A stretch of 64,000 bases of DNA from Hydra vulgaris. Lineage: Eukaryota > Cnidaria > Hydrozoa > Anthoathecata > Hydridae. Position 1 is the stretch's first letter, and each line of letters begins with the position of its first letter. Under the pieces are notes generated by a model. The model was not told the origin of the DNA and made no database searches. It saw only the letters and a program-made list of their open reading frames with translations. This document shows, piece by piece, positions 15,222 through 56,999 of the stretch. A program made the position numbers and the translations under genes. Location of the stretch: assembly GCF_038396675.1 (NCBI RefSeq), contig NC_088926.1, positions 516,001 through 580,000 of the forward strand. Reading direction: 5' to 3'.

Positions 15222-15560
15222 AAATCGGTTCAAAAAAACAATTTGAAAACTCAACTTGATATAAAATTATAAGAAAATTATTAATAATTGATTTTTTAAT
15301 ATCGAAATCACATTTTTATTTTGAAAAAAAAAAAATTACAAACAAACTCAAGTTACTTGATAAAAACCTACACAACAACAAATTGAAAAAATGGCTATAA
15401 AATAATAATTATTACAAGAAATAAAGTTTTTTTACTTACTAAAAGATGTTGAACAGGGAACAAAAACAAATTGATTAAAACAACACTTAATCCTGCAAAT
15501 GCTGCACAACAAAAACTTGTAGCAGAGGAAGCACTAAAAACAGTGCTGGTTACCTAACAA
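15222..15560 (-). repeat. Higher-order repeat unit with exon-like segment, copy 1
   Basis: Shares with copies 2-6 a block running from TTCACAAAAATCAG..CAATTTGAAAACTCAACTTGATATAAAATTATAA to GAAGCACTGAAAACAGTGCTGGTTACCTAACAAAGA, ending at a (TA)n tract. On the minus strand the last part reads as an exon after GTTAG, open as [30 protein letters not shown], and stops at a TTA/GTAAGTA donor. The hydrophobic run suggests a membrane segment, but coding use is unproven. Confidence 0.7.
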
Positions 15561-15840
<280 letters not shown>

Positions 15841-16307
15841 ATGAAGTACATTGTAAAACCCCACTATTTGTGACAAACTTTCTTTACATTGTAACACTGA
15901 CTATCCCACAAGACAAATAAAACTCAGAGCAAAGATCTTAAAATGTCCAAAATTAGTTCACAAAAATCAGTTCACAAAAACAAAAGGAAAACTCAACTTG
16001 ATATAAAATTATAATAAAATTATTACCAACTGATTTTTAATTATCGAAATCGCATTTTCATTTTGAAAAAAAAATATATATAAAGAAACTCAAGTGACCT
16101 GATAAAAACTGAAACAACAACAAATTAAAGAATGGCTATAAAAGAATATTTATTACAAGAAATAAAGTTATTTTACTTACTGAAATTAAGATGTTGAACA
16201 GGGAACAAAAACAACTTGATTAAAATAACACTAAATCATGGAAATGCTGCACAACAAAAACTTGTAGCATAGGAAGCACTGAAAACAGTGCTGATTACCT
16301 AAGAAAG
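15841..16307 (-). repeat. Higher-order repeat unit, copy 2
   Basis: The fullest copy: begins GAAGTACATTGTAAAACCCCACTATTTGTGACAAAC just after a (TA)n tract, passes through the TTCACAAAAA..CTCAAGTGACC block, and ends with the exon-like GATGTTGAACAGGGAACAAAAAC..GCTGATTACCTAAGAAAGATA segment into the next (TA)n. Confidence 0.8.
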
Positions 16308-19105
<2,798 letters not shown>

Positions 19106-19111
19106 AAAAAA

Positions 19112-19449
19112 AAAAATAGTTCACAAAAATCAGTTCACAAAGACAATTTGAAAACTCAACATGATATAAAATTATAACAAAATTATTAAAAACTGATTTT
19201 TTTATATCCAAATCAAATTTTTGTTTAGGATAAAAAATTTATTAACATACTCAAGTGACTGGATAAATACTTAAACAACAACAAATTGAAAGAATGGCTA
19301 TAAAAGAATAATTATTACCAAAAATAAAGTTAATTTACTTACCGAAATAAAGATGTTGAACAGGGAACAAAAACAAAGTGATTATAACAACACTGAATCC
19401 TGCAAATGCTGCACAACAACTGAAAACAGTGCTGATTACCTAACAAAGA
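19112..19449 (-). repeat. Higher-order repeat unit, copy 4
   Basis: Begins inside the unit at TAGTTCACAAAAATCAGTTCAC next to the foldback arm, and runs to CTGATTACCTAACAAAGATA. A small deletion removes CTTGTAGCAGAGGAAGC inside the exon-like part. Confidence 0.78.
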
Positions 19450-20433
<984 letters not shown>

Positions 20434-20556
20434 GAACTCTTATATGTTGTTCGAAAGTTTTTTCCATATTTTGTTTACATAAAGTAAAAATTAAAATGCA
20501 AAGCCGGAATTTTTTTTTTCACTAATTGATAGACTGCCTGCCCCAACCAAAGTCTT

Positions 20557-20700
20557 AGTTGATGTAGCAGCACTCCCTTGCAGGTCATGCTAAAAGATCG
20601 TAGAGGTAGCAGCACTCCGTTGTAAGTCAGGCTATTTGTCAGTCAATGTAGCAGCACCTGCTTGCGAGTCAGGCTATAATATAGTCGATGTAGCAACACA
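20557..20700. repeat. 42-bp minisatellite, set 2 (left foldback arm)
   Basis: About 3.4 units in the same orientation as set 1. Confidence 0.88.
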
Positions 20701-20985
20701 TTTTATTAAAAAAAATTAATAAAAACATTCTTTTTATTGTTAAAAACATTAAAAATGTTTTAAAATTGTTCAGGTCAATTAAATTTGCGTTTTTGTGGTT
20801 ATTTTAAAAAACAATTAATTTGTAATTAAAATAATGGTTTTAACTTCCTAACAACACGCAAATGTTGGACGAAAGTCAAAAGTTTTTGAAAGTGCCTTAT
20901 GTGTTGCCGTAATAATCTTTTTTTTTCCTCCGCTTTTCCCAAATGCAATAAACTATAGAACTATATAAATGTAAATATATATATA

Positions 20986-21216
<231 letters not shown>

Positions 21217-21540
21217 GTTGTCTTTGGGAAGAGCGGAAGGAAAAAAAAGACTCTTATGCCAACACATACGTCACTTTTAATTACATTTGACTTTCGTCCA
21301 ACATTTGCGTGTTGGAAGAAAGTAGAAACCATTAATTTAATTACAAATAAAATGGTTTTTTTTTAAAAAAAAAAACGCAAATTTAATTGACCAGAATGTT
21401 TTAAAAACATTCTGAATGTTTTTAACAATATAAACAATGTTTGTATTTTTATTTTTTTTAATAAAATGTTTTTATTTTCAATTTTTTTAATAAAATGCTT
21501 TTATTTTTAACTTATTTTATTGTAAATCATGCGCGGAGTG

Positions 21541-21727
21541 TTGCTACATCGACTATCTTATAGCCTGACTCGCAAGGGAGTGCTGCTACATCAACTGACA
21601 AATAGCCTGACTTGCAAGGGAGTGCTGCTACATCGACTGACAAATAGCCTGATCCGCAAGGGGGTGCTGCTACATCTACTATCTTTTAGCCTGACCCGCA
21701 ATTGAGTGTTGCTACATCGACTGAGAG
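21541..21727. repeat. 42-bp minisatellite, set 3 (right foldback arm, inverted)
   Basis: About 4.4 units in inverted orientation (GGGAGTGCTGCTACATCGAC), one more than set 2. Confidence 0.88.
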
Positions 21728-21842
21728 TTTGGTTGGGGCAGGCAGTCTATCAATTAATATTAAAAATAATTCCGGTCTTGCATTTTAATTTTTACTTTTT
21801 GTCAGCAAAATATGGAAAAAACTTTCTGACAACATATAAGAG

Positions 21843-21844
<2 letters not shown>

Positions 21845-21929
<85 letters not shown>
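21845..21929. repeat. (TA)n tract
   Basis: TA alternation linking the foldback's right end to the perfect palindrome. Confidence 0.93.
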
Positions 21930-21932
<3 letters not shown>

Positions 21933-22077
21933 AATTAGTAAAAAACACTTATCTAACTTTTATCTTCGACTTGAAGTTTCACCATTGCTGGATCATCAGG
22001 AAGCTTCCTGATGATCCAGCAATGGTGAAACTTCAAGTCGAAGATAAAAGTTAGATAAGTGTTTTTTACTAATTTAT
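21930..22077. repeat. Perfect 148-bp palindrome made of two Penelope-type 3' ends
   Basis: Two exact 74-bp arms meet with no spacer at GGAAGCTTCC. Each arm reads outwards TTCCTGATGATCCAGCAATGG, TGAAACTTCAAGTCGAAG, AAGTGTTTTTTACTAATTT, clearly related to the 3' tail of the Penelope-like element at 17960-18045. (TA)n borders the left side. The right side continues as unrelated-looking sequence (GCTCTGTTCTTTAAGAACATTGAGCACTC) that recurs inverted near 24790-24835. Confidence 0.92.
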
Positions 22078-22136
22078 TATTGCTCTGTTCTTTAAGAACA
22101 TTGAGCACTCTATTTGTAAAATACACTAACATAATT

Positions 22137-22670
<534 letters not shown>

Positions 22671-24910
22671 GTATTTTAAGACTGATATATATTTATATAT
22701 AAATATATATCAGGCTGTCACAGGAAGATGTATGATAGGACGTTGTTATTTGACCAGGCAAATTATATTATGCTTTGCCAATTCGACCACGGCTTTCAAC
22801 ATATTTTCAAAATTTAAAGATGCGCAACAAAAACTTAATTAAACTTATCTTCAAAAACACTTTTAAAAAAAATGAAAATCCTAACGACAGTTAGGACTTC
22901 CTTTTCTTATTCGATAAAAAAAACTTAACTAAAATAAAACTCATCAAACTAAATTACTTTGCCTAATTTATGCATTAAAAAATCAATTTGTACTTTGTAT
23001 TAACATTTGTACTTTGTTTTTTTAAAAATATGTTTTAAAAGATAAACATTCATCATATAAAATAGATAATTATACAAGTAAAAAAACAACAACTGTTTAT
23101 TAATACTTATTATAAAAATTCATTAGAAGTGTTTTGTTACTTTATTAACACTTTATTTACTAAGGAAAGGTAAGGTAGGGAAATTTTTTTTCAACATGAA
23201 AAAACATTAAAACATTTTGAAAAGGTTTAGCCATTGGTTTGGAAATAAATTTGGGAGAAGTAAGTTCCGTCTTACATATGTTTTTATTAAACTAATGAAA
23301 AAATATGAAAAAAATACAATATACACATAAAAAAACTAAAGAAAAAATAGTTAATATTTTTTTTGCCAATTTTAAGTCAGTAGCACCTCACAAGACATAT
23401 AACTCCTACAACAAATTTTACAAAATATAGCATAATAAAGCAAGAAAAACTAATCATAACAACATAAGAATTTGTTAACTATAATAAATATAAACCAAAA
23501 AAATTTGCAAAGCACAAACATATTTAATGATATAATACTTTCAAGTAAAGAAAAAAAATTTATTAGCACTGCAAGCTTTAGTAGACATTTTGCAAATAAA
23601 AATATGTGCTTTTGAGCAATAACTTTAATGATATTTTTTTATATCAAGATATTACAGCGTATATCTTCTAATTTCTATAAATAAATATCAATAATTTACA
23701 TTTTCACTAAAAAAATAAAGACATCAACTTCCAGCAGAGCTAATAAGCCCCATCAGTAACCAAAGGGTTAAAAAGCATTTTGGTAAAATAATAGCAATTA
23801 AGATCAAACTTATTTAATTGTAACAGCTTTCTAAATCATTTGTCTTTTTTTTTTCAACAAATCTTTGTTTACCTTTTCAAATCTATTAACTTAAGGTATT
23901 AATATATAAAAATTTTGTTAAAGAGACTTTCGTTGTCGTAGGATGTCACTGTTTCTAACAAAACATTTTTGATTTATTTAAAAACAATCATTATAAAAAA
24001 TGCACATTTAAACAATTTATATATTATATATTAAAAAAATATATACAAATGTCAATGATACTTTTAAAAAAAACCATTATCAGTAAACTGTTTAAAAAAA
24101 GCATATCGCTTATTTAAAAACATTTGTTAAAAGTTTCAATGTAATTTATTTCAATTAAGGTAAAATTCAAAATAGTTTTCATTCAGCGCGTTTTGAAAAT
24201 GAATTATAATACAGCCACGGTCAAATTGTCAAAAAAAAATTGACTTTGCCTGGTCGTAAATAGATGTGCAATCACACGTCTTCCTGTTTAATAATTGTTG
24301 AGATTGATTTCATTTTACAGCTTTTAATTAAAAACATAGCACTAGAGGCCTTTAATAGTTTTATTAACAGTGCTGCTTAAAAAAAAAAGTTTTCTATTAA
24401 AAAATTTTTATTTTTGTAAAAAGTAAATTAAGTTTATGTTGCTAAAAATCACCATTATTGTGTGTAATTTATGTTATGTAATTTATTTGTAAACATGTAT
24501 TTGTAAAGATTGATTAAAAATTGTTTAAAGAATTTAAACATTCAATTACTAATTATTTAAAACATTGAAAACTACATAAACTAAAATTACTAAAACATAG
24601 TGAATAAATAGTAAAAACATTTTTAAATGTTCATGTATTCAAATTTAGGCCTTTAAATCAACTCCTATCTTAGGATAAAAGTAAAACAAGATAAACATAA
24701 AGGATTGAAATGTTGATTCAAAAAAAGATAAATAAAAATCAAGGTTGCAGTATTGGTTGAACTAGGAAAGAAAGAGGAAGAGTAAAATATATTCCACAAA
24801 ACAGAGTGCTCAATGTTCTTAAAAGAGCAGAGAAATTATAAAGTAATAGAAAATTATTAAAAAAAAAATTTTTCAAGTGAATTTCTACAACTTTATGTGT
24901 ATATATGTAA

Positions 24911-33291: not shown

Positions 33292-36202
33292 ATGGATTCA
33301 AGTCGCTCTGAAAATTTTGATATTTTTAAATTTAATGATTTTATACTTAGCAAAGAGTCCGATCCGGATCACAGTTATTTAAGTGAAACAGATGCTTTAC
33401 AAAGCAACTGCAGCTATTTTTATACTTTTGAAATAAAAGAACTTCTTGAGCGTGATAAATTTAATGCAATTCATATAAATATAAGAAGTTTAAAAAAAAT
33501 TTTTAAAAATCTTTGCAATAGTTTTGAGGAAAATCTAACTATTGTTAGTGTAATTTGCCCAACTGAAATCTGGTGTAGTTCTGCTGACTCAAATTTAGAT
33601 AATAATTTTAAAATATCGGGCTATAATTTAAATTCATTAGGGCGGAAAACATATAAACGCGGCGGTGGTTTAATTATTTATGTAAAAGAAAACCTACGGT
33701 ATTTTGTTAGGCATGCCATGAGTATTTCTGACGTCAATATAGAGGTTTTAACGATTGAAATATTAAGCAATAAAACTAAAAACATTGTAATTAGCTGTTG
33801 TTATCGCCCACCTACTGGCAAAATTAAAACATTTAGTTCAATTTTACATGCCGATATTGAAAATAAAATCAACCACCAAAAGAAATTACTTTACATATAT
33901 ATTTGTGCGGCCGTGGCGCAGTGGTTAGAGCGCTTGCTTTATAAGCAGGAGATCCAGGTTCGAAACGAGCTCTGGAAGTTTTTGCGTCACGGTAAGGAAG
34001 GAGGCGTGAACCTCCTGATTAAATGCACTTTCGCGGTGCTCTGTGACAAGACCCTTAGGACTTCTTGGGGCACCTAAAATAAAAATTGAAAAAAAAAAAA
34101 AAAAAAAAACATATTAGGTGATCTGAATTTAAATTGCTTTGAGTATCACGTTAAAAAAGACATTAATGGGTTTTATAATGGCCTATTTAAATATGGACCA
34201 GTTACTCTAATAAACAAACCAACAAGAATTACTCAAACAACAACTTCCTTAATTGATATCATAATAACCAATGAATTTTTAATAGTTCGCTTAAAAAAGG
34301 CATTATTAAAAGTGACATATCTGATCATTTCCCTATTTTCTTTTCAATAGATATTTATGCGAAAATTTTATATAATGAAAAAAAATCATTTAAAAAATGA
34401 CTTTTTCATAATAAAAACCTAGAATTTTTTAATTATCAACTTTCTTTAGTTAATTGGGACATTATTAACTTTTCTGAAGACATTTTTTTAATATACTAAT
34501 CTTTTTTTAAAATTTTTTATGAAATTAATGACATCAATTTTCCCAAAGTAGAAATTAATTTCAAACAAAAAAAAATTAAATCGCCATGGATTACTAAAGG
34601 TATTCTAAAATCATCTAAAATTAAACAAAAACTTTATATTAAATATTTAAAATTAAAAACAACTGAGAGTAAGACCAATTATAAAAATTACGTAAGACTA
34701 TTTGAACGCCTTAGGAAAAACTCAATGTTAATATACTACACTAATTTACTTGAAAAATACAAATTAAACTCTAAACGCACTTGGCAACTAGTAAACGAAA
34801 TTACGGTTAACACTAAAAAAACATCGCAATCTTTGCCCTCAGTTATTAAAGTATATGATAATTTTATTCTTGATCAAAAAACAATTGCTTCCGAATTTAA
34901 TAATTATTTTGTATCTGTAGGACAAAACCTAGCCAAAATAATTCCAAACCCTAAAAAATCATTTAAGGCAACATATGACCCTCTAAACTCGTATCTGAAT
35001 TTTTTTGATTTGTCTTTTGAAGAGTTTGAAAGTGCTTATAAATTCTTAAAGTCAAATAAAGCAGTTGGTCCAGATGATTTCAATGGGAACGTTATTATAA
35101 ACTGTTTTGACGTTTTAAAAGACATGCTTTTTCAAATCTTTAAATGCTCTATTAATCAGGGAGTTTTTCCTGATGATTTAAAAATAGCAAAAATTATTCC
35201 TATATTTAAAGAAGGAGAAAAAACTAATGTTAAACACTATCGTCCAATTTCTATCCTCTCTGTTTTTTCTAAAATTTTATAAAGAATTTTGCACAACAGA
35301 ATATACAATCACCTTTTATCAAACAAATTATTTTATAACATGCAATATGGATTTAAAAAAAATAATTCAACAGAGCATGGAATTATTCAGCTTACAAGAA
35401 ATATATCAGACTCATTTAATAATTCTAAATTCACATTGGGAGTATTTATTGATTTAGCGAAAGCGTTTGATATCATTAATCATAAAATTCTTGCTAAAAA
35501 ATTAAAATGTTGTGGTATAACAGGCAATGTTTTAAAATTGTTAAAAAGTTATTTAACTAATCGCAAGCAATTTGTTTACGCCGATGAAACAATATCATCA
35601 AATTTGTTAAATATTACATGTGGAGTTCCTCAATGATCCATATTAGGACCTCTTCTTTTCATTATTTATATTGATGATTTATACAAAGCCTCGGATTTAA
35701 TAACAATTATGTTTGCTGATGACACCAATTTATTTATGTCACACAAAAGCATTCCTACTTTATTTAGTTGCTTGAACATCGAGTTAATCAAACTATCTGA
35801 CTGGTTTAAGACTAACAAATTATCTCTTACATTGATAAAACTAAATGGGTTTTTTTCCATTCTCTTATCAAAAAACATAAACTGCCAATTAACATGCCTC
35901 ATCGTGTTATTGACAATATACAAATTAAACAAGTAACAGTAACCAACTTTCTAGGTGTTTGTATAGATAAAAATCTTACATGGAAAAGTCACATTAAAAA
36001 CTTATCAAGTAAAATTTCAAAAAGTATAGGAATATTGTACAAAGCAAGATATGTTTTAAATAAACGTACTTTAGTACAATTACATCACTCATTTATTCAT
36101 TGTCACATAAACTATGCAAACATTGCTTGGGGTAGTGCAAAGAAACTTAAACCTCTTTATTGTCAGCAGAAGCATGTAGCACGTATCATATATTTTAAAT
36201 GA
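33292..36202 (+). pseudogene. LINE ORF2 (endonuclease plus reverse transcriptase), CR1/L2-like, broken
   Basis: The frame opens at ATG 33292. The endonuclease part has HINIRSLKKIFKNL, TEIWCSSADSN, YKRGGGLIIYVKENL and ISCCYRPPTGK. It is cut at about 33895 by a SINE and resumes at 34110 with ILGDLNLNCFEYH and TRITQTTTSLIDIIIT. The RT follows in several frames: 34725-35282 (SNKAVGPDDFNG, KIIPIFKEGEKTNVKHYRPI), 35289-35636 (YGFKKNNSTEHGI, VFIDLAKAFDIINHKILAKK, NITCGVPQ), about 35637-35840 (FADDTNLFMSH) and 35894-36202 (VTNFLGVCIDKNLTW). At least five frame breaks, including TGA right after GVPQ. The 3' end is cut by (TA)n at 36209. Confidence 0.88.
33907..34109 (+). mobile_element. tRNA-derived SINE, copy 1, inside LINE endonuclease
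   Basis: The head folds like a tRNA: acceptor GCGGCCG, A box TGGCGCAGTGGTTAG, anticodon stem CTTGC/GCAGG around TTTATAA (anticodon TAT, Ile-type), and B box GGTTCGAAAC. A conserved body (TTTTGCGTCACGGTAAGGAAGG..CTTCTTGGGGCACCTAAAATAAAAA) and an A-tail follow. It splits the LINE endonuclease frame. ACATAT occurs on both sides, a possible short target duplication. Confidence 0.92.
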
Positions 36203-36208
36203 CCGTTA

Positions 36209-36885
<677 letters not shown>

Positions 36886-46536: not shown

Positions 46537-46835
46537 CTAAATAGCAAAAAAAAATATTTTTATATCTATTTTAATATTAAAATAACAAAGGCTTAAGACA
46601 AAAAAAAAGACGATTGTCACGTTGTGATAGTCGTGGAATTGCTCTACAAGCGCTTCCACAAAAACTTCATTTCCATTAGGTGTGACAATTTTAGTTCGAC
46701 AAACGCCTTTGCACTGTTGTTGTTGTCCATTAACAGTTACCGCACTAACTATTTTCTTCGTAATTTTTGGCGCACATTTTTTATAAATGATGCAGCAGGT
46801 ACATCCTGAGTCGGTTAACACATCCCAAGAAACAC
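46537..46835 (-). pseudogene. Retropepsin-type protease fragment of LTR retrotransposon
   Basis: Minus-strand frame reads YINGVSWDVLTDSGCTCCII (DSG active-site motif of an aspartic protease), then KKIVSAVTVNGQQQQCKGVC and NGNEVFVEALV. Only one half of the dimeric site is expected per chain. It lies 5' of the RT fragment at 43768-44690 in the same orientation, as in a gag-pol order. Upstream sequence to about 46930 is too decayed to call gag. Confidence 0.65.
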
Positions 46836-47173
46836 CATTAATGTAGGTAAGGCCATTAGTGATTGGTTAGGGAGAGAACTGGCGCAAACATCCTCTCACT
46901 CGGCACGTTTTTTGGACACATTTTTGATGTGTCCTTTCTCTTTGATTGATTTTTGTTGTTTTTTATAACAAATTAATTTTCGTTTTTTTTTTCGTAGTAT
47001 GTTCTATTGTGTTTTCTCTTTTTTTGAATTTGTCCGTCTGACATGAGCATTTTTCTTTAACAACCTGACAATTCGAAATTTCGTAATTTCATCATTGATT
47101 TTTCTGTAAAATTATGTAGAGATTTGATTTTGATATTGCATAATCGTATCAACCTCCATTCGTTATCGTTTTC
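46836..47173. other. spacer between LTR relic and the motif-linked ORF array
   Basis: T-rich on the plus strand; no gene supported. ACATTTTTGATGTGTCC and similar short repeats only. Confidence 0.45.
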
Positions 47174-47590
47174 TTAAATATTAAAAAGTCCATGAAGATT
47201 GGCATCTTGAATAAAACGTAAATTAGTGGGTCCTCCTAATGGTTTTATAAAATATACAGGTGAATTGTAACAACGTTTCATTATTTTACAATAACCATCT
47301 TCAATAGATTTGCAACATAAAGTAACAATATTATAACCAATTAAAAAATTTTGAAACAAGTCAGCAAAATGAATACTGTTTTTCATTTGCATTTTAAACT
47401 CTTCCAATGTTTTTTGTTTTATGTGATAAACAATTTTATCTGGACTTTGAATTTCTGAATGAACTTGCGTTTCTTCAACAATATCTTCATCTTTATGATC
47501 ATCTTTGATGTAAAAAAAAATGTTTAGTGTGCATAGTGTTGTTACTAAACTTACTTTCCTCAGTTTGATATTCAAATTTCGTTTTTTTAT
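47174..47590 (-). CDS. Uncharacterised ORF downstream of helicase in the virus-like array
   Basis: Open on the minus strand for about 137 codons to TAA 47174-47176. Product: basic start, acidic middle (DDHKDEDIVEETQV), then FKMQMKNSIHFADLFQNFLI, GYCKIMKRCYNSPVYFIKPL and RFIQDANLHGLF. No family is recognised. A clear ATG is missing; AGATATAAAAAAACG just upstream looks like a worn version of the array's start motif with ACG in place of ATG. It follows the helicase relic on the same strand. Could be a damaged gene. Confidence 0.4.
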   Translation of the reverse strand: MKKRNLNIKLRKVSLVTTLCTLNIFFYIKDDHKDEDIVEETQVHSEIQSPDKIVYHIKQKTLEEFKMQMKNSIHFADLFQNFLIGYNIVTLCCKSIEDGYCKIMKRCYNSPVYFIKPLGGPTNLRFIQDANLHGLFNI

Positions 47591-47595
47591 ATCTG

Positions 47596-48836
47596 AAAAA
47601 AAAAATTACATTTATTTTTTATAAAATTCCAAAACAACCGAATGGACAGTTATATTTTTTTAATATTTGTCGTAATTTTGATTTATCGTTAAGAATAATA
47701 AAAATGTCATTAATATTACAAACTCGCGATAAAGTAACATAATAAAGACTATTATTAAAAGCCTTTTAATTAAAATTAATAAATGCTTTATTCATTGTAC
47801 TTCCTTGTGCTTTATGCACAGTAAGAGAAAAAGCTAATTTTTAAGGTAATCCCAATCTTGAACATACAACAGTGTGAGAACAATCTAAAATGTCTTCTTT
47901 TACAAATTCAATTTTGACTTCTTTTCCATTCATACTAACCCAAACAGCATTATTTTCTAATAAAGTAACTATAACAACACTACAATCACACAAACTTCTT
48001 CAACATTGATATTTCTCACAAGCATAAGAACTGCACTCATTTTAAGATAAACAGCTGCTGGAATTTGAAACGAATATTGTATGTTTGATTTTTTAATGAC
48101 ATCTTTTGCATAAAACCAGCATCCTTCATACTTTATATTATTCATTTATTCATTATTATAAATATCAACTTCTAAATTTCTAAAAAATAATCTCGTATAT
48201 TTATGGTTGATATTTTCATCATTTTCAAAACAACGAGTCATAAAATAATCAATTGTTTAGTCTGAAACTTGTTCAAAACGTATTTCGTTTAAAGCTCCAA
48301 AAAATTGTGTATCTTTTTTTGTCTAAAACACTCAGTTAAAAAAGAACTTGTGTCATGTATTGTTGAAATATTTTAGATTTGAAAACAAATTCACCTTTGA
48401 CAGGTGGTAATTGAAAAAAATCTCCACAAGCAATAACTTGTATACCTCCAAATAGTTCATCATAACATTGTTTAAATTCACAAGCGAATAAATGTAATAA
48501 ATCAAATATTTGAGCGTTAATCTTTGAAATTTCATCAATAATTAAAACATCAGTTTCCAACCAAGTTTTTTTAATGTCAGGATGCATATGTCGTTTATAA
48601 TAATCAAAACTTTTAACACCTGTTTCTATACCAGCAAAAGCATGTATAGTCACACCATTTAATAAATAAGCTGCTTTTCCTGTACTCGCTGCAATATGTA
48701 TTGTTTTAACGATTTGTATACTTTGAGCAATTTCTTTTACTATATAACTTTTACCACTGTCAGCACCTCCAGTAATAAAAAAATTGATTCCTTGATCAAG
48801 CCATGGAAGAGCTTTTTGTTGTTGTAAAGATAACAT
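47596..48836 (-). pseudogene. Pif1-type (superfamily 1B) helicase, decayed
   Basis: ATG 48836 opens 166 intact codons with Walker A (FFITGGADSGKSYIVKEI), a Pif1-type ASTGKAAYLLNGVTIHAF, Walker B (VLIIDEISKI) and FGGIQVIACGDFFQLPPV. After a stop near 48336 the C-terminal half is only readable in shifting frames to about 47600, ending with the SF1B signatures for HKAQG and YVTLSRV; I count at least five stops or shifts. Such helicases unwind DNA 5'-3' and occur in cells, large DNA viruses and Helitrons. No Helitron Rep domain was found nearby, and the neighbours are small motif-linked ORFs, so a viral-type origin is inferred. The array motif is not clearly present before this ATG (GCAAAAAATAAAAAATG only). 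Confidence 0.8.
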
Positions 48837-49219
48837 TTTTTATTTTTTGCTGAAAAAGTACAAAAAATTATTTTGAATATAAATACATTACAGCATATTT
48901 TACAATAAACATCATAAAAATAATGTTCGCATCAACGATTTTCTCCAGTTTACTTGAAAAATTGTCTTTATGTCCATTAACAAGTAACAAAAACTTTAAA
49001 GCTATCATTTCGTCTTTTTACAATACGTTTTTTTGTTCATTTAATAACTTTAGCAACTTTTTGTTGTTACCATTTTCTCTTATTTTATTCATCTCAAAAA
49101 AATTACATATAATTTACTTATTCAAAACATTTTTCACAATAAATAAACGAACAACTTCTCTTTCAAATTTCAAAATATTTAAATTCCTAACAATCTTCAC
49201 ATTCGTTTAAATAATGTTT
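48837..49219 (-). other. Probable decayed small ORFs between helicase and 49220 gene
   Basis: Minus-strand reading is broken. Short open pieces occur (RNLNILKFEREVVRLFIVKN at about 49190-49110; a 24-codon ORF from ATG near 49090). The long plus-strand frame here is only the shadow of this A-rich strand. No start motif is seen. Confidence 0.3.
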
Positions 49220-49428
49220 TCAATTTTCAATTTCTAGACATTTTTCTTTCCCATGTCTTAATAAATCTTCTATAGATAAATTTTTATAAAAATAATAAAA
49301 ACTTTCAAAATTCAAATTCAAATAAACATGATGACGTATTTTAATATATTGAAACACCATTAAAATCAATATAGAAGGTATTCTTTGATTGTATTTATAT
49401 ATGCTTTCCATCAAAAAATCCAAATCAT
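49220..49428 (-). pseudogene. Small ORF of the motif-linked array (G7), start frameshifted
   Basis: ATG 49428 lies directly after the array motif, but that frame stops after five codons. Shifting by one base opens 67 codons: DFLMESIYKYNQRIPSILIL, then FQYIKIRHHVYLNLNFESFY and LSIEDLLRHGKEKCLEIEN to a stop at 49220. An internal ATG (MESIYK) could also be the start. No family recognised; no cysteine cluster. Confidence 0.5.
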
Positions 49429-49447
49429 TTTTTTATTATGTAATCTA
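49429..49447 (-). promoter_or_regulatory. Array start motif, copy 1
   Basis: Coding-strand AGATTACATAATAAAAAAATG includes the ATG of the 49220-49428 ORF. Confidence 0.75.
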
Positions 49448-49503
49448 AAAAAAATTTATTCTAAAAAATATAAAAAAGTTACAAAAAAAATAATAGGTTT
49501 AAT

Positions 49504-49755
49504 TTATTTTTCCATTAGATATTTTTTCTTTAAATCATTCTCGAATATAAATCTTTTGAGTTTCTCAAATTTTTCCCGACTAGCAACACAAGGATCAAAA
49601 CTACAAACGAAACATGATTCCATTAAAAACATAGCTTTTTTTATTTCTCTAGTTTCATCAATGTTTGCAACGTATTCTAAGAACTCGTCTAAATCAATAT
49701 CTTCATTGACTGTTTCCATATATAAATCAAATTCTTCAAAGGTTGTTTTAGACAT
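49504..49755 (-). CDS. Small cysteine-motif protein of the array (G6), intact, 83 aa
   Basis: ATG 49755 sits 6 bases after the ACATAATA motif. Acidic first half (TVNEDIDLDEFLEYVANIDE), then MLESC-type cysteine cluster SCFVCSFDPCVASREKFEKL and a basic end. The C-x4-C-x2-S spacing resembles the C-x5-C-x2-C of its neighbours. No known family. It is the only fully intact member apart from the 52473-52712 gene. No signal peptide or membrane segment. Start chosen from the motif position. Confidence 0.62.
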   Translation of the reverse strand: MSKTTFEEFDLYMETVNEDIDLDEFLEYVANIDETREIKKAMFLMESCFVCSFDPCVASREKFEKLKRFIFENDLKKKYLMEK

Positions 49756-49773
49756 TTTTTATTATGTAATCTA
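49756..49773 (-). promoter_or_regulatory. Array start motif, copy 2
   Basis: Coding-strand AGATTACATAATAAAAAATG precedes the 83-aa ORF; the spacing to ATG is 5-6 A. Confidence 0.78.
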
Positions 49774-49839
49774 AAAAATACAAAAACGAATTGAAAAAAA
49801 AATTATACTTGAAAGTATGGTAATATAATATTTAAGAAA

Positions 49840-51375
49840 ACTTGCTTTCAAATGTCTAAACATCTATCTACTATTTTTAACAAAGTACTTGAGAGTGGAT
49901 CAATACCCCAAATATGGAAAGACGCAACAATTACACCCATATTTTAAAAAGGAGACAAATCAAAAGCACTTAATTATAGACCTATCAGTATAACTTGTAC
50001 TTTAATAAAAATCTTTGAAAAAATTATAAAAAATCATATTATGACACACCTGATTAAAAATAACTTATTAAGTCCACACCAATATGGATTTCGTCCAGAT
50101 CATTCCTGCTTAACTAATCTTTTAACTGTAATTAATTATTGGACGTCATCACTTGATAATAATATTCCCATCGACAACATTTATCTTGATTTTGAAAAAA
50201 CCTTTGACAAAGTTCCACATAAATTTCTTATTTCGAAACTTAAAGCTTATGGTATAAATGGATCAATACTATATTGGTTTAAAAACTTTTTGAAAAAGCG
50301 TAGACAAAGAGTTGTTGTTAATGGAAATTATTCAAACTGGGTACCCGTTAAAAGTGGAGTTCCCCAAGGCTCCGTCCTTTCAGCTTTACTGTTTATTATA
50401 TACGTCAACGATATCCCTGAAGTAATCAAATCAAAAGCTGCTCTTTTTGCTGACGATACCAAAATCTTCCGTTCTATTGAAAATACTCAATCTGCGCAAG
50501 AATTACAAAATGACATCGACGCTCTTGTTACATGGTCTCAAAAATGGGGAATGAAATTTAACATTGATAAATGTTCTGTAATGCACTTAGGAAACAACAA
50601 CAAGTCTCATACTTATAATATGCATGACCCAGAAAAAAAATATAAGAGAAAAACATTAAAACCACAAATTGCGAACGAGATTTAGGTGTTCACATAGATT
50701 CGAACTTATTATTTTCCAAACACACAGCTATTCAAGTCAACAAAGCCACACAAATAATAGGAATAATAAAAAGAACACTTACATCATATCCAGACTTATT
50801 ATCCTTCAAAAAACTATTTTTAGCACTAGTCCGCCCTCACCTAGAATACTGTGGATCAATCTGTAACCCTGGACTTCTCAAAGACAAACGGCAACTAGAA
50901 AATGTGTTAAGAAGAGCTTCGAAACGAATCAATGGATTACAGGATCTACCGTATGAACAAAGATTGTTGGCATTAAATATGACAACTGTAAAATACAGGA
51001 TACTTCGTGCAGACCTAATCAACGTCTACAAATAGTGCAAAAACAACAATAGTGACAGAAGTCTTTTTGAAATAGATAGTAAATTTATTACTCGTGGTCA
51101 TATATATAAACTAAAAAAACAATCTTCGCGATTAAATTTACGTATGAATTTTTTTTCTCTAAGAATAATAAATAAATGGAACTCTCTTCCTAATCACATT
51201 GTATCAGCGTTATCTTTAAAAACGTTTAAACTGCTTCTAGACAATCATCTAAAAAATGAATGGCTTCTCTATGACTAATCCACATTTTATTTTCTATTAT
51301 TTATCAAACTCTGTAATTGTCAAGTATTATATAATTAGGTTGACAGGCAGTTTATGCCTACACAATTTATTGTAA
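49840..51375 (+). pseudogene. LINE reverse transcriptase, 5'-truncated, inserted in the ORF array
   Basis: Plus strand, opposite to the array. Opens with VLESGSIPQIWKDATITPIF and ALNYRPISITC before 50041, then an intact run 50041-50685: LSPHQYGFRPDHSCLTNLL, NIYLDFEKTFDKVPHKFLIS, VPVKSGVPQGSVLSALLFII, catalytic FADDTKIFRS. A frameshift near 50640 leads to ERDLGVHIDSNLLFSKH, LALVRPHLEYCGSICNP and KWNSLPNHIVSALSLKTFK to a stop near 51278. The 3' end has a GGCAGTTTATGCC hairpin and an A-rich end at 51371. Only two frame breaks, so it is a fairly recent jockey/CR1-type insertion. Confidence 0.9.
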
Positions 51376-51384
51376 AACCTTAAT

Positions 51385-51771
51385 TTAATTTAAAAAAAAT
51401 ATAACCAATCTTTTCTTATAAACACTATCTTTTGTTTCAGAAATAAAAATTTCATATTTTTTATCTACACAATCTAAACACATTTGTTCAAGACAATTAC
51501 ATTTAAACAATTCACGTATTTCGTATTTATGAATACAAAAAGTTTCGTTTAAGAAATCTTTTGAGAAACCACTCTTTATAGAAGCATTTAATATCATACA
51601 TAAAATTCTTTCACTTTTTCTAAAGCTAAAACAAATAACTCTATCTTCATTATATTCTAAGCAATCGCACATAGCCAAAAAACGGATTTCGTTTTTTTAA
51701 TTTTCATAAATTTCCAAAAGCTGTTTTTCAGTTAAATCGAGTTTATTAGAAGCTTTTGATATAATTTCCAT
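51385..51771 (-). pseudogene. Small cysteine-motif ORF of the array (G5), one in-frame stop
   Basis: ATG 51771 follows the start motif. 128 codons with a single TAA after LLEIYEN. Contents: SKASNKLDLTEKQLL, CDCLEYNEDRVICFSFRKSE, NASIKSGFSKDFLNETFCIH, and the cluster ELFKCNCLEQMCLDCVDKKY near the C-terminus. The spacing C-x4-C-x2-C matches the array family. Its 3' end runs into the A-rich tail of the LINE, so the LINE landed at its last codons. Confidence 0.58.
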
Positions 51772-51789
51772 TTTTTTATTATGTAATCT
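51772..51789 (-). promoter_or_regulatory. Array start motif, copy 3
   Basis: Coding-strand AGATTACATAATAAAAAAATG at the 51771 start. Confidence 0.78.
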
Positions 51790-51805
51790 AAAAAAAAATA
51801 TTTTT

Positions 51806-52080
51806 TTACATATTAAAAAATTCTACCAAAACATTATATCCAAAAATTCTTCTTAGTTCAACATAAACATGACAAGAATTTAAATTACAAAATACACAAA
51901 CAAAGGCACAATCAAATTGTGCAATTTTACAAAAAGCGTCATATACAAAATCATGCTTTTTACAAATAACATGGAGTAATGTTTCCATACACTCCAGTAT
52001 TTTTGCAACTTTTTCACATATTTCCGAATCGTGTTGACTTAAAACCCATCCTGAGAATGACAATATCGCTAAACATCGTA
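51806..52080 (-). CDS. Cysteine-rich ORF of the array (G4), no ATG seen
   Basis: Open from about 52080 to TAA 51806-51808, about 90 codons, directly after the stop of the previous gene. It lacks both an ATG and the start motif, so it has lost its start or is read some other way. Product: LSQHDSEICEKVAKILECME, HVICKKHDFVYDAFCKIAQF and FVCVFCNLNSCHVYVELRRI. The last part follows the same C-x4-C pattern and ends in VELRRIF as the other members end in charged helices. Family unknown. Confidence 0.45.
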
Positions 52081-52087
52081 ATAAATT

Positions 52088-52410
52088 TTATTTTTCAATT
52101 TCAAAGGTTTTTCCTTCTAAATAATTTATAACTTGTAGTTCTTTTGTTTTTATTTCACGAACTTCTTTTACAAAATGAAAAAATTGTTCTTTAGTCATTT
52201 CTTTACTCTCTTGAAATTCTTCCAATGAAAATAGATGTAAAGAGTGATCATACCCACACTTTTCAACACCTTCACGAATGATATTGTGACTATCATCTCC
52301 TACTAGTTCAAAAAAAGAGGCACAAGGTCTTTATTCACAATTTTATTGTTAACGATATCATAACCACCATCTTTATTTTTAACAATTTCCATTTCATAAA
52401 TTACATTCAT
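52088..52410 (-). pseudogene. ORF of the array (G3), frameshift at a T run
   Basis: ATG 52410 follows the start motif. 35 codons (MEIVKNKDGGYDIVNNKIV) end at TAG 52303-52305, but shifting at the T/A run just before (52314-52320) opens a further 75 codons with VGDDSHNIIREGVEKCGYDH, LEEFQESKEMTKEQFFHFVK and a stop at 52088-52090. No cysteine cluster. Function unknown. Confidence 0.52.
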
Positions 52411-52430
52411 TTTTTTTATTATGTAATCTG
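52411..52430 (-). promoter_or_regulatory. Array start motif, copy 4
   Basis: Coding-strand CAGATTACATAATAAAAAAAATG at the 52410 start. Confidence 0.78.
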
Positions 52431-52472
52431 AAAAATAATTACAAAATTTTTTATAATATAGTTTTATAACTT

Positions 52473-52712
52473 TTATGATATATTCAAATATTTCAAGTAC
52501 CATTTGTTTAATCTTTTCTTCCTTAATTTTTTTCGAATTAAATCCATATTTCTTTCACAAGAATCACAAGGTTTCAAACCAGAACAATTTTCTTCGTTAC
52601 AAGAATTCACATTTTCCCTCATTTCTTTTATTGTTGGGCTATCATCATGAAAAACAGCCACGTCTAACAAAAGCTTTGAAATTAAATTTTCAACATGATA
52701 TTCAAAAGACAT
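52473..52712 (-). CDS. Small cysteine-motif protein of the array (G2), intact, 79 aa
   Basis: ATG 52712 follows the motif (with one change, AGATTTCATAATAAAAAAATG). Reads MSFEYHVENLISKLLLDVAV, then an acidic part, then NCSGLKPCDSCERNMDLIRK and a basic C-terminus. The C-x5-C-x2-C is the clearest in the set and could bind a metal. No known family, signal peptide or membrane segment. The longer frame upstream of this ATG reads through the motif and is not used. Confidence 0.62.
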   Translation of the reverse strand: MSFEYHVENLISKLLLDVAVFHDDSPTIKEMRENVNSCNEENCSGLKPCDSCERNMDLIRKKLRKKRLNKWYLKYLNIS

Positions 52713-52924
52713 TTTTTTATTATGAAATCTAAAAAAAATATAATAAAATAACAATAACTAAATAAATTAAAAATTATTTTATTTATGAAAAATTTCTTTG
52801 AACGATCGTTCATTGCATAAACAATTTTAGTCTTTCGACAATCTGGACACAATTCTACGAATTGACATGTTGTTAGTGCTGGTGTCATAAAACTACTTGA
52901 TGGTCATACTAATATTTTTACCAT
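52682..52924 (-). pseudogene. Small cysteine-motif ORF of the array (G1), in-frame stop
   Basis: ATG 52924 follows the motif, with TGA at codon 7. Reopening at an in-frame ATG (52888): MTPALTTCQFVELCPDCRKT and KIVYAMNDRSKKFFINK, with C-x5-C-x2-C as in the 52473-52712 protein. The frame continues through the next start motif to 52682, overlapping that ATG by about 30 bases. Confidence 0.52.
52713..52730 (-). promoter_or_regulatory. Array start motif, copy 5 (one substitution)
   Basis: Coding-strand AGATTTCATAATAAAAAAATG at the 52712 start. Confidence 0.72.
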
Positions 52925-52942
52925 TTTTTTATTATGTAATCT
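52925..52942 (-). promoter_or_regulatory. Array start motif, copy 6
   Basis: Coding-strand AGATTACATAATAAAAAAATG at the 52924 start, 40 bp from the mariner's left end. Confidence 0.78.
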
Positions 52943-52983
52943 AAAAAAAAATTTATATCTTTATTTTATCATCAAACTATATA

Positions 52984-54299
52984 ACGTCTGTTCACAAAAA
53001 ATCCAGAATGAAAAATTGTTTTTAATTGAATAAAAAATTAATCGATTTTTGACAAAAATTTTAACTAAAACGAGTGACTGGACATTGTTAACTATTTTAT
53101 AACCGAAAGTGGTCCTAAATCAGCGGCTTTTCGAACTTTAGTTTTGACTGAACCCATTAGGTTGAATAAGTAGTCTGGATTAAACTCTTTCAACTTTAAT
53201 CGAATTCTAATCTTAAGGTGGTCAAGATTTTTCGCAGTAAATCCATTTCCATAAACTTTTGCTTTTAAATGTGCCCAAAAATTTTCAATTGGCCTTAACT
53301 GCGGTACATTTGGGGGTTATCTTTAGCGTCGACAAAGTTAATACCTAAAGTGTTGTAAGTTTTTAATGTGTGTTTTGCATAATGACATCTCGCTCCGTCA
53401 GGCCAAAATAAAATTTTCATGTTTTGATGCTTGGAATTTATAAATGGAAAAAGTCTTTTTGTAAAAAATTCTTTAGAATAAGTTTTTGCATCCAGTGCAC
53501 AGTTTTTTACAGCAAAATAAGGCGATGAATGACCAAAACGACTGATTGCAATCTAAACGAGAACTTTCTCGTCAAACTTTTTTTTGAAGTTGAATTTAAT
53601 GTTAGGATCAGTTTGAGAACTATCCTTTGTATAGTAGCCAGAGTTTTGTGAACAATTTGCACCATTTACACAGAAATAAGATTCATCGTCCATGATGATT
53701 TCAAACTCATTTGATGGCTTGAAAAAAGTTTTTGAAAGTTTTAATAAGTTTTTCTTTTGTTTAATTTCTTGCTTTTCTGTTGTTTTTGGTGCATTTTTTC
53801 TTTTGGTATACTTTAGTCCATGCATACTTAATAATCTACATACGTATGAAACGCTTATCTTATATTTTAGTGCCAATTTTCTTTGCGAAATCCCGATTCT
53901 CTCTTCTGCTCTTGCAATCATGGACTCTCTCTTTTCTGGTGTAATTTTAAAAGGTTTTCTGCCGCAACCGATTTTTCTATTCATTGGCAAATTATTTTCA
54001 GACCTTTTAATTATGTCATAAATTGTAGATTTAGCGATTCCCATTTTCTTAAAATGATCCACTGTAAATTTCTTTCCACTGTTTATGTTTTGTTTATAAA
54101 AGTTTCCAATCACATTTCTAACATCGTTTTTTTTTAGATGCTCCATGTTTATTTGAATTAATTATTTAAACTCAATTTTGCCACAAAATGAAACTGTTGT
54201 TGTTGACCGATTAAATTTAAAAATTTCGAATAGAAAATTCAAAATTTAGAACAATTTGTGTACATTTGAAATCAGTCCGGATTTTTTGTGAACAGACGT
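52984..54299 (-). mobile_element. mariner-like transposon, 1316 bp, with both ends
   Basis: Terminal repeats ACGTCTGTTCACAAAAAATCCAGA and its complement (one mismatch in 24) flanked by TA at 52982-52983 and 54300-54301. It inserted just upstream of the ORF array. The transposase within is on the minus strand. Confidence 0.93.
53092..54146 (-). pseudogene. mariner-like transposase, DD37E-type spacing, inactivated
   Basis: ATG 54146 opens 197 codons: KKNDVRNVIGNFYKQN, helix-turn-helix KKMGIAKSTIYDIIKRSE and RKLALKYKISVSYVCRLLSM with a GCGRKP hook between, and the first catalytic Asp in FEIIMDDESYFCVNGA. A TAG near 53552 replaces the Trp of the VW-IAIS motif. The frame then continues with FFTKRLFPFI and FWPDGARCHYAKH (second Asp). 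A missing base in a C run near 53312 shifts the frame before RPIENFWAHLK (third acid, Glu), with the stop at 53092-53094. Counting across that shift gives 37 residues between the second Asp and Glu. Two lesions only, so the copy died recently. Confidence 0.9.
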
Positions 54300-54301
54300 T
54301 A

Positions 54302-56999
54302 ATTGGTTTATAATTTTTGTATTGTTAAACGGTTCTCGGTGACAGGATCTTATGATCCTCTTCGAGTTTCCGTGTTCTTTATATATTATGTACCAACGAC
54401 ACTTTTACCAGAGAATATTGTTAAATGAACAAAAAAAAAATAAAAAAAAAAAAATGTGTTCAGTAAAACTACTGATTACGGAATCCTTTTCCATTGAACA
54501 CACATGTATGCTTTTTATGCTCCTCTTCTCCTCCCACTGAATGTGTATGTATTGTTACAAAATCAACTCCTTGCTCCCAACCCTTTTCCAAAGCATAATT
54601 TTTTCAAAGCATTAAATGAACAGAATTATTAATTTTGTTATATAAAACCTCATGAAACTAAATGCCTTTGCTAAAAAAAAAAAATCAAGATTTTATAATT
54701 AAAAAAAAATCAAGTTTCAAATAGATAGAGAATGAGAAGTAGTCATACCGCGATTCTTTAACCACCTCCTCCTCTCTCTTGTACGGATTCATAGATTTTT
54801 GTGTAACCCAATTCTCTCATTCCTGCATACATACTTCATGGAAGACCCCTTATGGCAAATAGTATTATTGATAATAATGGATAAGTCATACAAGTAAACG
54901 GGTAAAATATTTTAATTTATGATGCACCAGCTAAAGCTCTAATTTAATCGCTTTAATGGTCATTATGTGATTGTAAGGTAGAAAAAACCTATGGTGGTTG
55001 AATAAACTTTTATTCCTCCTGGTGCTCACTGATAAAACATTTACAGGAAAAAATCAGAAAACTCACCACAAGGATATCAGTGTCTTGGTGTAATTTAAAG
55101 TAGATATGGTGCAGCAGTTCCCTCTAAACGCAATTTAGGGTGCCTTGCCTCCATATCATTCAAGTTGCCTTTGCTTGCTAGGTGCCTTGCTTGCAAGGTA
55201 GCTTGCTTGTACTAAAAATATTTATTTTATTTGGAAAAAGGGCTTCTTTTTCTGCGATTGTCATCTGGGCAAATAATTTTGTTAACTGTTTACTTATGTT
55301 CCTTAAAAGAATATATTCATATAAAATTTAATTGTAAGTCATGTTGTAAAACCAAGTCTAAAACATATGAAGTTGTGAAAAGCCTCTGAATCCAGAAATT
55401 TTCATTTATATATCATATAATAGATAAGAAAAATACGTCCAATCATATACTGTCTATTTTTCAAATGCTAGTTTAAGTGTTGCTATTTGTATACTGTACA
55501 GAAAATATTAGTTGACTCAATAAGGTTATGTTTATGAACTTCTTTGTTGCTTTGAGAACAATGCCAGGGTGTTTTATTCTGATCATCCATTAATTTATAA
55601 TCTTCATTGTTTAAATTATTTAGCTTATGATATCAGCTATAGAAAGAATGATACAATATCCTTCTCAAGTAGTAGCTCAAAATACTCGATGACTTAAAGA
55701 AATTATCAGAGCAGCAGTTTTTAAAAATTATTTTATGCAAAGAAAAATAAAATTTGTTATCTCAAAAGTGGAGGATTTTGTTTAATATTTGATAAGTTAA
55801 ATGTTAAATACATCTTTTAATGAAATAGTATCTAATGTCATAAAATATAGTTAACCCTTTTAACTGTTAACGATAAAATATTTTTAGACAATGCTTAGAA
55901 TAAAATAATATTCATATAAATTTTCTTCAGTTTTCTATTTGTTTTTATCTGGCTGTATATATTGAAAAAATAACATTAAAAATTTTTTTTTGGTTACAAT
56001 TGCAGTGTATTTCAAGATAGGATGCTTTATGAAATCTTGAGCAAGTTCAATGAAATGATGAATATTGCTCATGCCAGGTAAAATAGTAATATACAATACT
56101 AAAATAATAAATTTAAGATTGTTTACAATGGTCTAATTAAATATACACATGTGCAAATTTGTTATTGTTTATTTATATTGTGGTACAATGACATGTTTTA
56201 TTTTGAGTCTATGCATTTTTTCCAGAATTTAGTAAGATCATTACTTGTTAAACTTTGCTGTTATATAATTAACAGAGCTATCGATTATGTTGTAGAACTT
56301 GTTACTGATAAATTTTTAGAACACAGTTTATTTTTATTTAATTCATTATACCTACACGCTTTATTTACTGTTAATTATTGTATATTTGCATTTTAAAGTA
56401 ACAGATCGTCTGAACTTTTTAAATATTTGGAACAAAATTAAATTATATAACGTATTTTAAAAACTTTTGGAGACTGCTTATTAGTTTTCTTTAAATACTA
56501 AGGTAGGCCTAGTTTTACGAATGCGCTTAAACTTTTACTGTAAACTTAAACAAACTGAACTAATTTTGCAACATTTTTTAATGGTTTTGTAAAAGTCTGA
56601 GATATAATGTAAATGTCAATTTTTTTTATTGGCTTTTTAGGCTCATAATTGCAATTTAAATTGCAAATTAATGAGGCTTGTGTGATAGCAATAATCAACT
56701 CACATCAGAAAAAAAAATTAAAAACTTAGTATAAGACAAATTTGTTAACAAAATAAAAAGAACTTTTATTTTGTTAATATTTAGATAATAATTTACATTT
56801 TATTTTGTTGCTTATATTTTTGTTTATTATTTTCAGTTCGCATCATAGTTTTCAGACGATATATAAATCTAAATTTTATTTGGAAAAGAAGTAAAATGCA
56901 ACATTCAAAAAGTGACATTTAGATCAAGTCTGTATATCTGTCAAAATCCATTTGTAAAGAGACAGCAATGCTATAGCCGAACCCATATCTCTATCTTTC

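Follow-up and report, generated by a model that had tools for sequence, protein, structure and literature searches.

Acceptor-like signals before most early genes of a probable Polinton/MELD-like endogenous DNA virus in Hydra vulgaris suggest a trans-spliced early operon

In Hydra, polycistronic host transcripts are known to be trans-spliced, and transposon transcripts are known to bear spliced leaders. In the parts of the cited papers available to us, a host operon is resolved by trans-splicing at an AG behind a polypyrimidine tract, its intergenic region is described as without promoter activity, and the second gene is no longer expressed once the acceptor AG, together with the three AGs behind it, has been mutated to AA (PMC3273482); the spliced leader is found on ∼30% of transposon Iso-Seq reads (PMC12220107). 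Viral and virus-like DNA has also been described in this host: a Hydra polinton, P1-HM, is named in a figure legend (PMC11071308), Maverick is given among the active Hydra transposons (PMC12220107), and inserts of nucleocytoplasmic large DNA viruses (NCLDV), assigned by core genes, occur in Hydra vulgaris (PMC5294986). Hydra MELD virus (taxid 2707310, unclassified dsDNA) is deposited as a 17,997-bp contig. Here we analyze 64,000 nucleotides of the Hydra vulgaris genome (contig NC_088926.1, positions 516,001 to 580,000; hereafter the window), in which a minus-strand array of small open reading frames (ORFs) sharing one start motif, beside a Pif1-type helicase, had been put forward as a candidate undescribed endogenous DNA virus or virus-like element (the original prediction).

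The window very probably contains a decayed fragment of ∼6 kb, with nine genes, of a large multicopy Polinton/MELD-like endogenous DNA virus. We further propose, with a probability of roughly 0.68, that the early genes of this Polinton/MELD-type virus would be transcribed as one pre-mRNA that is resolved by spliced-leader trans-splicing. The array resembles the Hydra RFC140-flp operon in its close same-strand genes and in the T-rich sequence, polypyrimidine tract and AG that precede the downstream ATG (PMC3273482, in the part available); that operon is an experimentally proven two-gene host operon, whereas the viral block, with about ten or more genes, is known from sequence. With the NCLDV inserts the element shares the setting, viral DNA in the same host genus, and differs in its Polinton-type genes. 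The reading as an endogenous DNA virus is very probably right, as dUTPase, integrase-like, ATPase and PolB-like genes adjoin the array in other copies; "undescribed" was only partly right, since a relative, Hydra MELD virus, has already been deposited.

On the minus strand of the window AGATTACATAATA is present in five exact copies and once with a single mismatch (AGATTTCATAATA, 52718-52730). All six copies sit at the ORF starts that had drawn attention to the array; each is followed by an A-run and then ATG, and each has a T-run and YAG immediately 5' of it. Taken by itself, the 13-mer is no rarity in so AT-rich a window (15 occurrences with up to two mismatches vs 12.8 expected), whereas TTTTYAGATTACATAATAAAAAA, again with up to two mismatches, gave 6 hits vs 0.00 expected. 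Mean pairwise identity among the six copies is 0.89 for the T-run, 0.97 for the 13-mer and 1.0 for the A-run, against 0.34-0.43 in the upstream flank and 0.30-0.31 in the ORFs, and the conserved block ends sharply on either side. The contrast between a near-invariant motif and differing ORFs is therefore real. A recent duplication of gene and leader together was considered as the source of the motif and rejected, as few of the small ORFs match another and ORF identity is 0.30. The ORFs themselves have fared less well: four of the six are broken in this copy, with readings of 6 aa (from 52924), 35 aa (52410), 24 aa (51771) and 5 aa (49428) before a stop; only the starts at 52712 and 49755 lead into open frames, of 79 and 83 aa respectively. 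A Pif1-type helicase does adjoin the array (PIF1 match, 1.1e-29), though it is split into several frames. The genes and leaders of the fragment, all on the minus strand, are as follows.

52930..52942, minus strand: leader motif of g1, with a T-run TAG ahead (motif search).
52682..52924, minus strand: g1, small ORF with CxxC, the first motif-led gene of this copy; stop after 6 codons; related ORFs at other motif copies begin MVK[ILT].
52718..52730, minus strand: leader motif of g2 (one mismatch), T-run TAG (motif search).
52473..52712, minus strand: g2, open small ORF of 79 aa, Cys-containing; relatives at other loci.
52417..52429, minus strand: leader motif of g3, T-run CAG (motif search).
51806..52410, minus strand: g3, broken small gene (stops, frame changes); tblastn with P0089 and P0090.
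51777..51789, minus strand: leader motif of g4, T-run TAG (motif search).
51385..51771, minus strand: g4, broken small gene with CxC...CxxC modules and an in-frame stop; relatives P0008 and P0069.
49760..49772, minus strand: leader motif of g5, T-run TAG (motif search).
49504..49755, minus strand: g5, open small ORF of 83 aa; P0067, 46% (tblastn).
49434..49446, minus strand: leader motif of g6, T-run TAG (motif search).
49154..49428, minus strand: g6, broken small gene, Cys-rich in relatives; tblastn with P0094, P0087, P0083 and others.
48871..49092, minus strand: g7, small gene broken by a stop, with a T-run GAG directly on the ATG (tblastn); T-run TAG in the 8 other copies read.
47622..48836, minus strand: g8, Pif1-type (SF1) helicase in several frames, T-run CAG upstream; PIF1 1.1e-29.
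46988..47582, minus strand: g9, gene after the helicase, T-run CAG upstream; start codon lost (ACG), cut off at ∼46988; P0069 match.

From its position in less decayed copies, g9 is probably the start of a polymerase-like gene. A Pfam scan of the small ORFs of the window gave no matches. A large protein search returned no homologue of g5, yet P0067, reached via the helicase, matches it.

The T-run and YAG are not confined to the window. Among 65 distinct motif contexts, 62 have a T-run-type YAG immediately before ATTACATAATA (58 TTTAG and 4 TTCAG), the other three showing a shifted AG, AATAG or a duplicated leader, and at least three uninterrupted T stand ahead of the YAG in 54. Scored more strictly, as T4 plus YAG no more than 22 nt from the ATG, the signal is present at 52 of 63 motif copies (a context that recurs unchanged is scored a single time, near-duplicates separately, and the set of 63 needed more upstream sequence than that of 65). 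Eight early genes, with 50 starts between them, show it at 41; the corresponding figures are 0 of 41 for the starts tested of other viral genes (structural side, other strand; one gene, with 5 starts, is of uncertain side) and 167 of 6209 for the ATGs of the same stretches, true starts included, where the "early" and "other" classes were set from gene position after the gene maps had been seen, and the genes were picked by sequence patterns and do not comprise every gene. A T-rich tract and AG acceptor before close same-strand genes, the arrangement looked for in a trans-spliced operon, are thus found at these 41/50 starts and 62/65 motif contexts. Within the window, T-run plus YAG lies at 8/9 gene starts vs a background of 8/1926 ATGs, a count that includes g9 (ACG start; coordinate 10 nt off) and g7 (3 nt off) and omits two minus-strand ATGs with T5YAG inside the insert between g4 and g5.

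Gene by gene, the strict signal precedes g7 in 8/9 contexts, the helicase in 9/9 (always CAG, with C at -3 in all nine), g9 in 4/5, dUTPase in 2/5, g2 in 6/6 and three more upstream genes in 12/16. Each gene keeps an almost constant spacing between AG and ATG: 0 nt for g7 and for two dUTPase copies, 9-13 for g9, 11-17 for the helicase, 14-17 for the motif genes and 14-19 for the upstream genes. In 8 of 9 copies of g7 there is thus nothing between AG and ATG. When the 50 early starts are divided by the presence of the 11-mer behind the AG (up to two mismatches), the signal is carried by 10/10 with it and by 31/40 without it. The T-run and YAG are common to most early genes and the 11-mer to only some; with the gene-specific spacing, this fits 3' splice sites, most likely for spliced-leader trans-splicing. 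Another early gene, one of those upstream in the block (loci L158, L173, L191 and L197), has a related but different leader behind its acceptor, AGATTAACTAAT, and the leader seems to vary by gene class.

These observations bear directly on the view, held in the original prediction, that the motif is a promoter with a very short leader. Such a gene-by-gene promoter would account for an 18-nt leader that is far better conserved than the flanks or the ORFs and that lies at a nearly fixed distance from the ATG. It would not account for a T-run and YAG retained without the 11-mer in most early genes, at gene-specific distances that include 0 nt: where the AG abuts the ATG of g7 no leader is left, a situation that an acceptor receiving a spliced leader tolerates. 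TATA-like sites are little enriched before motif genes (13/63 vs 737/6209 in the background). As no RNA polymerase family was matched among the 30 ORFs scanned, the host RNA polymerase is the likely enzyme, and this too speaks against the promoter. We therefore set the promoter claim aside as improbable; the motif looks less like a promoter than a splice site, which suggests splicing.

In the trans-splicing mechanism that we prefer, the block from dUTPase to helicase would be a single pre-mRNA made from a TATA promoter ahead of dUTPase; of the five copies, four (A, B, C and E) have a TATA sequence in the divergent region on that side of the gene. Within the block most genes would carry their own 3' splice site (T-run plus YAG) on or just before the ATG, and the host would add spliced leaders at each acceptor to give separate capped mRNAs. 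ATTACATAATAAAAAA, behind the acceptor, would form the conserved 5' untranslated region of many small-gene mRNAs and have some further role; our guesses at the reason for its conservation are translation start context or help to the acceptor. With the precedents of the Hydra operon and the Hydra transposons, one early pre-mRNA receiving leaders at each acceptor is the simplest mechanism. Operon, trans-splicing and early timing alike are predictions, and several observations weigh against them: the strict signal is missing from 9 of the 50 early starts, 3 of the 5 dUTPase contexts included; a splice acceptor does not call for 11 conserved nt behind its AG; and three of the five copies (A, C and E) have, a little way ahead of dUTPase, a donor-like GTAAG that would allow a cis leader.

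This last observation leads to the most serious alternative, in which the virus is the same and a single leader exon of its own, situated near the TATA promoter ahead of dUTPase, is spliced in cis, alternatively, to each downstream gene, as in adenoviruses. Copies A, C and E have GTAAGC or GTAAGT a short distance behind the TATA sequence, and B has GTATGT before dUTPase; B has no GTAAG at that place, and copy D, which aligns poorly, has no donor-like site listed. Public gene models (P0067, P0069, P0087, P0090 and P0094, annotated as PIF1-like helicase or uncharacterized) look like small ORFs and helicase fused across predicted introns, and so connect small ORFs with those that follow. In P0087 the leader itself appears in translation, as SILHNKKMEPTEN (LHNKKM), as if a predicted intron ended at the AG before ATTACATAATA. 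These models are, however, predictions, and the host trans-splices many transcripts (PMC3273482 and PMC12220107, in the parts available). We consider cis-splicing unlikely, and less so than the promoter.

The original prediction had proposed a search of the whole genome for the motif followed by ATG. The exact 21-mer, AGATTACATAATAAAAAAATG, occurs 202 times (91 + 111) in the 911.5-Mb Hydra assembly, and a reversed-pattern control 0 times. With one full-length helicase as the query we obtained at least 103 matches (two being pieces at one place), that is, ∼102 relatives on many contigs, these helicase counts being lower bounds as 102 of 1022 candidates were scored. Motif and helicase keep company: a listed same-strand helicase lies within 12 kb of 56 of the 100 motif copies listed, in every case 0.7-5.3 kb downstream (taking the lower coordinate of the helicase match as its position), with none on the opposite strand, a comparison that covers 100 of the 202 motif places and 52 of the 103 helicase matches (contigs C1-C8). 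Some of the other 44 places have an unlisted helicase, for example this window and copy D. Neighboring motif copies no more than 12 kb apart are on the same strand in 33/33 cases. At one locus (L178, C2:9060161-9060289), three motif copies at 54-nt spacing form a tandem duplication of acceptor, leader and gene start before one g4-type gene.

Were the motif part of a plain repeat, it would be found without ORFs. An ORF of at least 45 aa follows 47 of the 50 motif copies listed and 53 of 63 copies (the broken ones of the window included), vs 1033 of 6209 ATGs of the stretches retrieved, a background to which real genes contribute; loci L158-L187 were taken as the first 30 places along the genome and do not form a random draw. 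The helicase piece at 48336-48836 matches 14 Hydra vulgaris proteins at 59-88% identity, encoded on contigs that vary widely in length, and tblastn with Hydra proteins found g3, g4, g5, g6, g7 and g9 conserved beside helicases elsewhere. In all ten groups of open genes from other loci the median ratio of nonsynonymous to synonymous substitution (dN/dS) is below 1 (0.19-0.78; pairs with dS ≤0.05 or dN ≥0.5 were excluded, a filter that can bias the ratio downward, and the pairs lack statistical independence), with helicase and g9 the most constrained. Such medians favor real genes. Four exact motif hits in IMG/VR were considered as relatives and rejected as coincidence: they comprise two near-identical contexts without a T-run that read as one phage coding sequence.

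To identify the element we took neighboring stretches for six clusters and two outer pieces of one cluster. Clusters A-E carry many open genes, cluster F is mostly decayed, and copy E is common with other copies from L206:2611 to L207:3098, ∼34 kb. In less decayed copies the dUTPase-to-helicase block and the gene after the helicase lie on one strand. A dUTPase is found beside the array (4.2e-22). A 439-aa ORF of copy B matches the rve integrase family (PF00665, E 1.6e-5, 25.5 bits, below the Pfam cut-off of 32.6; one copy) and has no PHROGs match. An ATPase is seen in two copies, with matches to ATPase_2 (5.2e-6 and 3.6e-4), Pox_A32 (0.006 and 0.0033) and, in one of them, Adeno_IVa2 (0.0042), all below the Pfam cut-offs, and an HNH (Endonuclease_7) domain lies within a large ORF in two copies (6.8e-6 and 5.5e-7). 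Further along, one ORF of copy A contains, in order, KLQINGHYG and VTDTDSG, which resemble motifs B and C of family B DNA polymerases (PolB); we assign the HNH domain and these PolB-like motifs to one large gene. A Death-domain gene (L193:8638-8886, E 9.2e-9) lies between the polymerase-like gene and the ATPase in copy B; its product, if viral, could interfere with host apoptosis or innate signaling.

Two more Death-domain ORFs stand side by side near copy E (L206:563-847 and 195-524; 1.4e-5 and 3.1e-4), beyond the main stretch common to the copies; they may be host genes and are not counted to the element. Downstream of the 503-aa ORF is a 66-aa ORF, very rich in Arg and Lys (L207:1884-2081), which has no family match and presumably resembles a virion core protein.

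The gene set is thus, in part, shown to be Polinton/adintovirus-like; for capsid, polymerase, integrase and ATPase no curated match was reached. The element recalls Polintons/Mavericks and adintoviruses in its below-cut-off matches to an rve-type integrase and an A32-like ATPase, in its PolB-like motifs, in the HNH domain of the large gene and in its multicopy integration. Unlike them it has a separate Pif1-type SF1 helicase gene, a block of small Cys-containing genes with a common acceptor and leader, and a Death-domain gene, and the DNA polymerase and capsid families were not detected here. A search for capsid, polymerase or packaging genes near other copies, likewise proposed at the outset, was successful in part, returning the PolB-like motifs and the sub-threshold A32-like ATPase and no recognized capsid. 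The viral assignment has to be held against these shortfalls: no Pfam polymerase match was obtained in the ORFs of the element at E up to 1; ORFs of 503, 619, 673 and 1039 aa have no capsid-naming match in Pfam, PHROGs or PDB sequences; the integrase and ATPase matches are below the Pfam cut-offs; no terminal inverted repeats were found between the outer pieces of copy E, whose ends may extend beyond them; and AlphaFold models of ORFs A3 and A4 were uninformative (pLDDT 37 and 41).

A plain, non-viral transposon with a captured helicase, whether a Helitron or another interspersed repeat, would agree with the many copies on many contigs and with the lack of a recognized capsid. Helitron helicases are of Pif1 type, and Helraiser is among the helicase matches, weakly. 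A Helitron was nevertheless rejected, as the helicase is a stand-alone protein of ∼410 aa and no Rep domain was found in the ORFs scanned. That these stretches also encode a dUTPase and integrase-like, ATPase and polymerase-like proteins argues against any plain transposon, as does a named viral helicase, the S1H of Hydra MELD virus, that falls in the helicase clade described below. We regard this explanation as very improbable.

The protein search that brought up the S1H of Hydra MELD virus listed 120 of 1793 proteins. In a 32-row tree, 11 Hydra proteins, one environmental protein and the S1H of Hydra MELD virus (P0092) form a clade of 13 with support of 100/100 and a long stem, of which S1H is the deepest branch. 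The helicase piece of the window, itself outside the tree, is tied to the clade by 82-87% identity to P0001-P0004. Since the Hydra helicases and the MELD S1H form one clade, the elements appear to be relatives of an already deposited virus. Hydra MELD virus, compared by S1H alone, differs: its S1H is 35% identical to P0010 and 46% to P0071, and its contig is 17,997 bp, against the ∼34 kb that copy E has in common with other copies. P0071, an environmental protein on a 4.2-kb contig, lies inside the Hydra helicase clade and hints at a free relative or one of another host. Helicase relatives from phages and IMG/VR are distant (23-50% identical), and no relatives came from searches that used P0092, P0071, the polymerase-like ORF or the 503-aa ORF as query, or from a first one that used the window piece.

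The array has been interrupted and bordered by other mobile DNA.

49860..51380, plus strand: insert between g4 and g5, ends approximate, which we take to be a non-LTR (long terminal repeat) retrotransposon; RVT_1 1.6e-29 in 50041-50685; no clear target-site duplication seen.
52974..54309, strand unassigned: element just upstream of g1, presumably Tc1/mariner-like, with 38-nt terminal inverted repeats, 87% complementary.

Inside the latter element an ORF at 53553-54146 has weak helix-turn-helix matches. At the broken end of the array, positions 46537-46866 give weak aspartyl-protease matches (0.042 and 0.058), perhaps a retroelement fragment. Long (TA)n tracts at 15500-22800 and 36160-36660, open in several frames, are ordinary simple repeats.

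The virus is of a known kind; its mode of expression and its early gene family would be new, pending RNA evidence. We found no description of such a viral operon in the titles and abstract starts of the papers listed by our literature searches, of which the coverage is incomplete. A viral operon would explain why public gene models fuse small ORFs to a "PIF1-like helicase". More broadly, we put forward, at even odds, a family of animal DNA viruses in which about ten or more early genes form a genuine eukaryotic operon dependent on the spliced-leader trans-splicing of the host. In such viruses a dedicated, conserved cassette of T-run, YAG, ATTACATAATAAAAAA and ATG would let new small genes join the array, and the structural genes would be expressed another way. 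If true, this would show how a DNA virus packs a many-gene operon into an animal nucleus, and the host range of such viruses would be tied to animals with spliced leaders.

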